From contig MHOA01000010.1 of assembly GCA_001821765.1 (NCBI GenBank), positions 1-43,254 on the forward strand: a stretch of 43,254 nucleotides of DNA, in the 5' to 3' direction. The notes beneath the pieces were generated by a model. The model was not told the DNA's origin and ran no database searches. It saw only the letters and a list, made by a program, of their open reading frames with translations. A program made the translations under genes and the position numbers. Positions 39,398 to 40,833 of this stretch are shown here, piece after piece (within the stretch, counting starts at the first letter, position 1; each line of letters begins with the position of its first letter). Source of the stretch: Candidatus Ryanbacteria bacterium RIFCSPLOWO2_12_FULL_44_26 (GTDB lineage Bacteria; Patescibacteriota; Minisyncoccia; Ryanbacterales; HO2-45-13).

Positions 39398-39617
39398 GGA
39401 AATTATAGTCCAAGCCACTGAGGTTTTGAGGCAAGCGGGTGCGTTTTAAGCAATCCTGTTATAATGTCGTTTTTCGTTTTTCGTTTTTGCTTTCCCAGTT
39501 ACAAAGTGAACACACCGGCACTGTTTTGTATTCTTAATTTCAGGAAAGCTATTAGTTTTAGCTTGTTGTGTATTTCTTTAAAGCCAATATAAACGTTTAT
39601 TGCTTTTTTTGACGCTC

Positions 39618-39646
39618 TTGATTTTCTGTAACTATTATGGTAATCT
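39618..39646 (+). promoter_or_regulatory. Promoter of rnpB
   Basis: TTGATT (39618-39623), 17-nt spacer, TAATCT (39641-39646); the start 7 nt later is G39653, the first base of helix P1. Between the small RNA and this promoter (39398-39617) I see only a short CGTTTTT microsatellite (3 units) near 39474. Confidence 0.8.
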
Positions 39647-39652
39647 ATTTTT

Positions 39653-40522
39653 GGAATGTATCGTGTAATCGCCCCCTCACCTAAAAAGCGTTATTTTTTT
39701 GATTGCTCCTTGGGACGCCTTCACCATTGATATGCTTTTCAGCGGTAAGGTCAACAATGGTTTTAGGAATCACAACATATGTTTAAAGCTTTTTAGGTGA
39801 GGGGGAGGAAAGTCCGGGCACCGCCGTGTGTACTTCGCACACAACTAATAATAAATAACTCATAGCAAATAGCTTTTGTCGATCGCTGTTATTAGTTGCG
39901 GGCGGGGTGTGCACGGGAGAGGTAGTGGCTAACGGCCACCCGTCCCAGCAACAATAATAAAAAATTTATTGTAGCCGGGATACGAGAAAGTACCACAGAA
40001 ACTATACCGCCCTTCGATACGCTCAGGACAAGCCGCTTTTTGAAGGAGGCCTCTAGTTCTGAGTCCGCCAGATGGCGGATCGAAGAGTAAGGGTGAAAAG
40101 TGTGGTGTAAGAGACCACGGCACAATATGGCGACATGTTGTGATGGAAAACACTTATCACATATTTTATCAAAGATGTGTGATCCTGCGTTTTGCAGGAC
40201 CCGGTGCAACCCTGTGCGCATCTCACTACCGTTCGATGCAGAGTTATGAATAACGAATTATGAATTTAGGGTTTACATTGATTTTCTAATTCTTTATTCC
40301 AGTTTCTTATATCGAGCTGTGGCGAGGTGCGAAGGGGCTTGAGTCCGGAAGCAATCTCGGACCTAGACAGATGATTACGCCAATTTTGTCTGGCGGAGTC
40401 GAAAACAACATTGAGCGTTCTGCTATGAGCGGGGGCAACCCCGCAATCCCGCGGGATCCTCAATGTCGCGGCTTTATCGCTTAGGTGAAATTGGAACAGA
40501 ACCCGGCTTATAGATACGTTCT
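39653..40522 (+). ncRNA. rnpB: RNase P RNA, greatly enlarged
   Basis: RNA subunit that removes tRNA 5' leaders. P1: 39653-39662 with 40513-40522. P2: GTAATC (39665-39670) with GATTAC (40373-40378). P4: GGAAAGTCCGGGC (39807-39819) with ACAGAACCCGGCTTAT (40496-40511). The conserved ACAGAAACTATACCG, GTAAGGGTGAAA and GGTGTAAGAGACCAC segments lie between, then CTTGAGTCCGG...CCTAGA. It is ~870 nt, over twice the usual 350-400. Additions: an 18-bp perfect P3 helix (39672-39689/39788-39805) with a 98-nt loop; an AACTAATAA/TTATTAGTT arm; a palindromic repeat at 40010-40085; a ~90-nt L15; and ~115 nt of paired sequence between P2 and P4 (40379-40495). Confidence 0.93.
40010..40085 (+). repeat. Palindromic repeat inside rnpB (P12 region)
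   Basis: CCCTTCGATACGCTCAGGAC folds with GTTCTGAG (40056-40063) and ATCGAA (40079-40084), with an extra hairpin TCCGCC/GGCGGA between. The core is of the dispersed type that mistranslates as PERIEG or VLSVSKG. Confidence 0.6.
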
Positions 40523-40570
40523 CAATACAACAAAAACCCCGCTTTAGCGGGGTTTTTGTTGTATTGAGAA
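40519..40570. terminator. Bidirectional terminator of rnpB
   Basis: A perfect 24-bp stem built on CAAAAACCCCGC/GCGGGGTTTTTG with loop TTTA. It overlaps the 3' strand of P1 and may also end the minus-strand regulator gene. Confidence 0.92.
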
Positions 40571-40602
40571 AAGCAATAAAACCGACTCGGTGCTATGCTT
40601 TG

Positions 40603-40833
40603 TTATTCTCCTTTCTCTTCTATTAGGGCAACCTCTATTTTTCTTGGTATATCCCTTCTTCTCTCGAGTCTTTCTAAAATTTCCTCTATCTGATTTTTTT
40701 TATAAAGACGGTAGTTATTAAAGGGGTGTCTGTAAGGAATAAGTTTGCCCTGTTTATCCCAGTTACGAAGTGTCAATGTGGTAACGCCCAACAAAGAAGC
40801 GGCAGATTTTATTGTGTAGTATTCGTTTTCCAT
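40603..40833 (-). CDS. MerR-like helix-turn-helix regulator
   Basis: A 76-aa DNA-binding protein: YYTIKSAASLLGVTTLTLRNWDKQGKLIPYR is the MerR/excisionase winged helix-turn-helix, followed by NNYRLYKKNQIEEILERL. It has no effector domain, like BldC or phage excisionases. Two 20-bp direct repeats immediately upstream are its likely binding sites. The divergent neighbour is the surface fibre gene, which it may control. Confidence 0.85.
   Translation of the reverse strand: MENEYYTIKSAASLLGVTTLTLRNWDKQGKLIPYRHPFNNYRLYKKNQIEEILERLERRRDIPRKIEVALIEEKGE

Follow-up and report, generated by a model that had tools for sequence, protein, structure and literature searches.

A long RNase P RNA gene whose P2–P4 insert most likely derives from a palindromic repeat family of the Paceibacteria

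The window analysed here, the whole stretch of 43,254 nt, carries a gene for class A RNase P RNA (rnpB) downstream of ftsZ. According to a covariance-model scan with an E-value threshold, positions 39653–40522 match RF00010 over model positions 1–367 with 74.5 bits (E 1.8e-22). This score is below the curated cut-off of the family (100). The gene is consequently not reported by a default Rfam scan, because its insertions push the score under the cut-off. A sequence-only reading of this DNA had described an RNase P RNA with P1, P2, P4 and core strands, and had named a search with the bacterial class A model as a check. The match bears out this identity, and the proposed coordinates are exact, giving 870 nt from P1 to P1. 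The cmscan alignment sets P1–P3 too far 3′; the helices were read directly. Both P4 strands and the universal core blocks are present, with the blocks in the expected order, and P3 was found as had been described: a perfect 18-bp helix with a 98-nt loop. The gene and its flanking elements are as follows.

39609–39638, + strand: promoter-like site TTGACG-18-TATTAT (consensus scan, 10 of 12 matches; such sites are no commoner in the sequence than in shuffles)
39653–40522, + strand: the rnpB gene of 870 nt, class A (RF00010 match; strands by direct reading)
39653–39662, + strand: 5′ strand of P1, pairing with 40513–40522
39665–39670, + strand: 5′ strand of P2, GTAATC, pairing with GATTAC at 40373–40378
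39672–39805, + strand: expanded P3, a helix of 39672–39689 with 39788–39805 whose loop folds further
about 39805–39819, + strand: 5′ strand of P4 (GAGGAAAGTCCGGGC), pairing with ACAGAACCCGGCTTAT at about 40496–40511
40523–40570, + strand: terminator-like palindrome AAAAACCCCGC..GCGGGGTTTTT directly 3′ of P1, by sequence

The placement of the promoter-like site suits a transcription start just 5′ of P1. The 3′ palindrome is absent from the output of a simple terminator scan. The host genome comprises 0.89 Mb in 14 contigs and is rated 100% complete; a search of it found no second copy of rnpB. The window's FtsZ is nearest (∼60–67% identity) to those of Parcubacteria such as Giovannonibacteria, Tagabacteria and Taylorbacteria, a similarity that suggests that the host belongs to the CPR class Paceibacteria. 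Most likely, the locus encodes a working class A RNase P RNA with enlarged peripheral helices.

Folding of the segments, together with a comparison against nine same-order genomes, identified six expansions in the RNA, all of them peripheral and at sites known to vary. Besides P3, these are:

39823–39918, + strand: expansion between the 5′ strands of P5 and P7 (segment fold; relatives also have hairpins there)
40011–40088, + strand: expanded P12, three-way (segment fold)
40157–40199, + strand: two hairpins between the 3′ strands of P7 and P5 (segment fold)
40207–40342, + strand: expanded P15 (segment fold, −50.6 kcal/mol)
40379–40495, + strand: insert of 117 nt in the P2–P4 joint, a head-to-head pair of palindromic repeat units (homology with other inserts)

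The extra domains previously noted are thus present, but they number six rather than five: the one that had been overlooked, 40157–40199, is missing from the same-order relatives, whose sequence there is ACACTTACCCGGTGCAA. Similarly, an expansion assigned to the specificity domain exists and is more exactly placed between P5 and P7. "Expansion segments" is a fair term for the expansions other than that in the P2–P4 joint, which occupy known variable helices. When the genome was searched with an 881-nt rnpB query for copies of these other expansions, only short chance matches were returned. The P12 expansion contains, at 40011–40027, CCTTCGATACGCTCAGG, which resembles a hairpin (H3) of the repeat described below and is possibly a trace of another decayed unit; the motif has one match in the window, where 0.01 is expected.

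The RNA is long. RNase P RNAs are mostly 250–550 nt (PMC2996960), and the RF00010 matches in the nine same-order genomes span about 360–570 nt. The P4-to-P4 span of 706 nt ranks third, after 735 and 713, among 86 distinct Paceibacteria genes (median 374.5), a set enriched for carriers of the repeat element. The size is therefore unusual, not unique. In one published study, P3, P12, P15–17 and P19 were left unaligned, their sequence not being conserved (PMC4264200). In the portions drawn on here, Lui et al. 2021 (PMC8172020) describe CPR RNase P RNAs that are diverged, have greatly extended helices, score below the Rfam thresholds and often lack the UGG motif; judged by these, an enlarged CPR RNase P RNA alone is a known kind.

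The insert in the P2–P4 joint was characterized further. It aligns with an insert in the same joint of another genome (G001) and with a P5–P7 insert of a third (G008). The joint had been singled out as a striking site, being very short in E. coli. The insert is indeed there, 117 nt long, but the site itself is not novel: in the established nomenclature it is the position of helix P19, which provides a precedent for an insert at this joint. A covariance model of the three inserts (R1) matched more copies outside rnpB in G001, G000 and G005, as well as the rnpB P3 of G039, a genome from another order. The element consists of two ∼62-nt units arranged head to head, each unit being a hairpin H3 followed by a hairpin H4. 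H3 has the consensus CCCTTCGAC..CTCAGGG, and its foot may often bear a GTAA/GTAG-like tag; H4 is CTCAATTTTG..CAAAATTGG with one base bulged. A model of the single unit (R2) was built from 12 training sequences, seven of them from rnpB. In whole-genome searches, R2 located the two units of the window, whose copy belonged to its training sequences:

40376–40431, − strand: left repeat unit, H1 + H2 (37 bits, E 1.0e-5)
40437–40498, + strand: right repeat unit, H3 + H4 (46.8 bits, E 5.3e-8)

R2 detected the unit in 157 of 384 Paceibacteria genomes (E ≤ 0.01), with 1–13 units per genome and eight in the window's own (E ≤ 0.5). Among 240 genomes drawn from the entire phylum, a match at E ≤ 1e-4 was seen in just five that lie outside Paceibacteria. 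By its distribution, the unit is essentially a Paceibacteria element, and the P2–P4 insert is a worn copy of this palindromic repeat family. One of the meanings proposed for 40379–40495, an inserted RNA element, is upheld to the extent that homologous repeats occur at several other rnpB sites and elsewhere in related genomes. Open-licence papers yielded no match for such a repeat in Patescibacteria, nor for one as a source of rnpB expansions; relative to that literature, the palindromic-repeat origin of the P2–P4 piece and the other settings of the repeat are new.

The unit recurs in rnpB. At least 40 of the 150 unit matches listed (scores from about 40 bits upwards) fall inside rnpB or no more than 350 nt away from it, in 21 genomes, and uniform placement would put well under one listed unit there; the 40 genomes with a located rnpB were picked partly for odd rnpB genes, and the four rnpB-training genomes supply only 6 of the 40 matches. 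The remainder comprise 73 matches elsewhere and 37 in genomes without a located rnpB; at least two matches from these two groups proved on reading to be rnpB (L172, L246). Close head-to-head pairs with both units among the matches listed were inside rnpB in 14 of 14 cases. In the rnpB genes that were read, the element stands in place of P3 (G124, G093), between P5 and P7 (G008, G283, G331, G327, G055, G093), at P8/P9 (G265), in P12 (G079), probably in P15 (G013), and in the P2–P4 joint (the window, G001, G063, G269, G350, G081, G093, G055, G053). A single RNase P RNA, that of G093, holds three pairs; in that of G055 there are two and a half.

Seventeen pairs from the rnpB genes of 15 Paceibacteria genomes align across five sites with a mean column identity of 59%, and the alignment includes invariant loop-distant and bulged positions. 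These features, together with unit E-values as low as 1e-14, make it extremely unlikely that AT-rich hairpins grew independently in variable helices with no common repeat, even though the peripheral helices of RNase P RNA vary freely (PMC4264200). An assembly or binning error has a next to negligible probability: the genome is a draft, but it has a single rnpB with an intact core and its completeness rating is full, and inserts of the same family are present in rnpB in 14 or more other, independent assemblies. A single orientation of all rnpB copies, which would have pointed to selection on the RNA, was considered and dropped, the pair being nearly symmetric to its own reverse complement.

Several further observations concern rnpB in these genomes. 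The G005 gene (L026) has two copies of another palindrome, CCAGCACCTA..TAGGTGCTGG, in P12 and in the P2–P4 joint; more than one repeat family may thus enter RNase P RNA. G097, with an estimated contamination of 4%, has two rnpB-like genes (C17:1825–2226, L183; C4:12229–12569, L173), the second flanked by units. Finally, G121 and G276 are nearly complete and carry units, and their rnpB was undetected even by a permissive search.

The fold of the element was evaluated using the homologues. In the RNAalifold consensus, the hairpins are local and 24 of 37 pairs show compensatory change, as compared to a mean of 12.6 in shuffles, none of which scored as high. When H1 and H4 each form a local hairpin, 97.3% of cells are paired, with 36 double changes. 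By contrast, a rod in which the outer arms pair with each other leaves 85.6% of cells paired, shows 3 double changes and does not outperform shuffles; it was rejected as the conserved fold. The minimum-energy fold of the window copy is nevertheless the rod (−52.6 kcal/mol, z −4.6), and imposing the four hairpins costs energy in every copy. The self-pairing originally proposed for 40379–40495 accordingly agrees with the minimum-energy fold, while comparison of homologues supports four local hairpins. By covariation, the hairpins are conserved, which is compatible either with selection on the RNA or with a DNA hairpin used in movement.

These data also bear on whether the P2–P4 piece is an intervening sequence that an enzyme such as RNase III removes from the transcript, leaving a two-piece RNase P RNA. 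Intervening sequences of 23S rRNA are excised post-transcriptionally, and a long self-complementary element with its feet together would suit this process. We consider it very unlikely. Covariation points to several short hairpins instead of a single long rod, a cut would detach the P4 3′ strand and P1 from the remainder, and no intron or ribozyme family was found: group I, group II and self-cleaving Rfam families gave no match at E ≤ 1 in 39500–40620. Moreover, removal of the insert would not be needed, as the two feet of the element meet beside the core.

Outside rnpB, single units occur in many genomes, including the window's own. We took 80 further unit matches with their flanks and oriented them; at least one of these proved to be rnpB. 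In 32 of the 80, the unit ended within −3 to +1 of an ATG opening a frame of at least 60 codons, as compared to 0.8% of control positions. Units that end exactly at a gene's ATG (..CAAAATTGGCATG..) include L142, L156, L169, L176, L177, L178, L323 and many of L220–L299. Judged by eye from their first residues, the genes that follow units putatively include rplC, rplK (in the window's own genome), rplP, rplT, rpsL, rpsT, rpmA, rpmF, nusA, ileS, dnaK, dnaJ, trxB and mutM. A further ten or so units lie directly against the 3′ end of a tRNA gene encoded on the other strand (L221, L229, L234, L244, L256, L260, L271, L272, L289, L290). The lower stem varies with the setting, being TGC/GCA before genes and CAC/GTG at tRNAs. 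In one genome, G031, four different genes are each preceded by a nearly identical unit. Outside rnpB, a second subtype, TCCTCGATTTTG..CAAAATCGGGACA, also occurs in weaker head-to-head pairs; this subtype is often head to head with TCCCGATTTG..CAAATCGAGGA (L248, L259, L274, L284, L293 and, in the window's own genome, L324 and L325).

The main rival explanation is based on these settings: the unit would be a functional RNA module of the translation apparatus, bound or processed by a shared factor such as RNase III or a translation regulator, and selection would have put it at mRNA starts, at tRNA 3′ ends and in RNase P RNA. This reading draws most strength from the exact fit to start codons and tRNA ends, poorly explained by tolerance alone; in addition, the hairpins covary and many of the adjoining genes, as read by eye, belong to translation. 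We nonetheless regard such a module as rather unlikely, inasmuch as the rnpB site changes between lineages, most genomes of the class are without detectable units, the neighbouring genes are not all of one pathway, and near-identical copies within a genome resemble recent dispersal. A related proposal, that the hairpin module is a common tag on the translation machinery, copied between sites and read by one shared factor, appears improbable. If true, it would place RNase P RNA under the same control as the start codons of ribosomal-protein and other genes and the 3′ ends of tRNAs.

We also looked for features of known mobile repeats. A GT occupies a fixed place of the H3 foot in 18 of 47 anchored units (p 2e-12), which recalls GTAG-tagged REP repeats (PMC3733652). 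An unanchored count gave no GTAG excess, and the window copy is without a GTAG-like tag. No unit was found within about 1.2 kb of 20 Y1-transposase loci. The Y1 family occurs in 106 of 157 unit-bearing genomes and in 119 of 227 others, a weak co-occurrence (p 0.003) in which phylogeny was not controlled. Y1 transposase was therefore set aside as the mobiliser. Exact-pattern scans of viral contigs for the P3–P4 stretch and for the unit gave no match, and hence no phage carrier was seen.

Overall, the explanation that we favour, with moderate confidence, is that the insert is a dispersed REP-like palindrome, tolerated in peripheral rnpB stems and kept in the mature RNA. The unit would disperse as a non-autonomous repeat and survive where a self-folding hairpin does little harm: in peripheral rnpB stems, at start-codon edges and at tRNA ends. 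Two units head to head would form four hairpins whose outer feet meet, capping a helix and leaving the core undisturbed. In rnpB, the element would remain part of the mature RNA, substituting for P3, P12 or P19, since the meeting of its feet would let P2 and P4 form. Dispersal is favoured by the four near-identical units before four genes of G031; it is weakened by the low copy number per genome, by the absence of units beside the 20 Y1 loci and by the weak co-occurrence with the Y1 family. Simple tolerance also under-predicts the exact start-codon fit, the fit to tRNA 3′ ends and the setting-dependent lower stem.

If REP-like dispersal is correct, the repeat entered, or was copied to, five or more peripheral sites of rnpB in different lineages and is a concrete source for big expansions in an essential ribozyme. 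RNase P RNA would then show, as a natural experiment, where a ribozyme can accommodate inserts, and repeat inserts would partly explain why CPR RNase P RNAs score below Rfam cut-offs. The units lying exactly at start codons and tRNA ends point to a class of hairpin, absent from the open-licence literature, in a very large and mostly uncultured bacterial group.

In comparison with class A RNase P RNAs, including the CPR forms in the cited portions of Lui et al. 2021 (PMC8172020), the window RNA shares the core strands and helix order and, with the CPR forms, the sub-cut-off Rfam score and large extensions such as P15. It differs from them in being longer (870 nt), with expansions at six sites, and in that one expansion is traced to a dispersed repeat, of which those portions make no mention. 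The unit resembles REP/BIME repeats with a GTAG tag (PMC3733652, PMC2817692) in being an imperfect palindrome, perhaps often with a GTAR-like tag at one foot, that occurs singly or in inverted pairs, mostly outside coding sequence. Unlike REP/BIME, which number more than 100 copies per genome, it has few copies per genome and a second hairpin (H4), was not seen beside Y1-transposase genes at 20 loci, and exactly fits start codons, tRNA ends and rnpB stems. The insert occupies the same position as helix P19, between the P2 and P4 3′ strands; unlike P19, it is a four-hairpin, 117-nt element with homologues at other sites of the RNA. Repeats are tolerated inside functional genes in the Rickettsia palindromic elements and the short tandem repeats of cyanobacterial rnpB. 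Those cases are from other bacteria; here, a single repeat family occupies five or more sites of one RNA.
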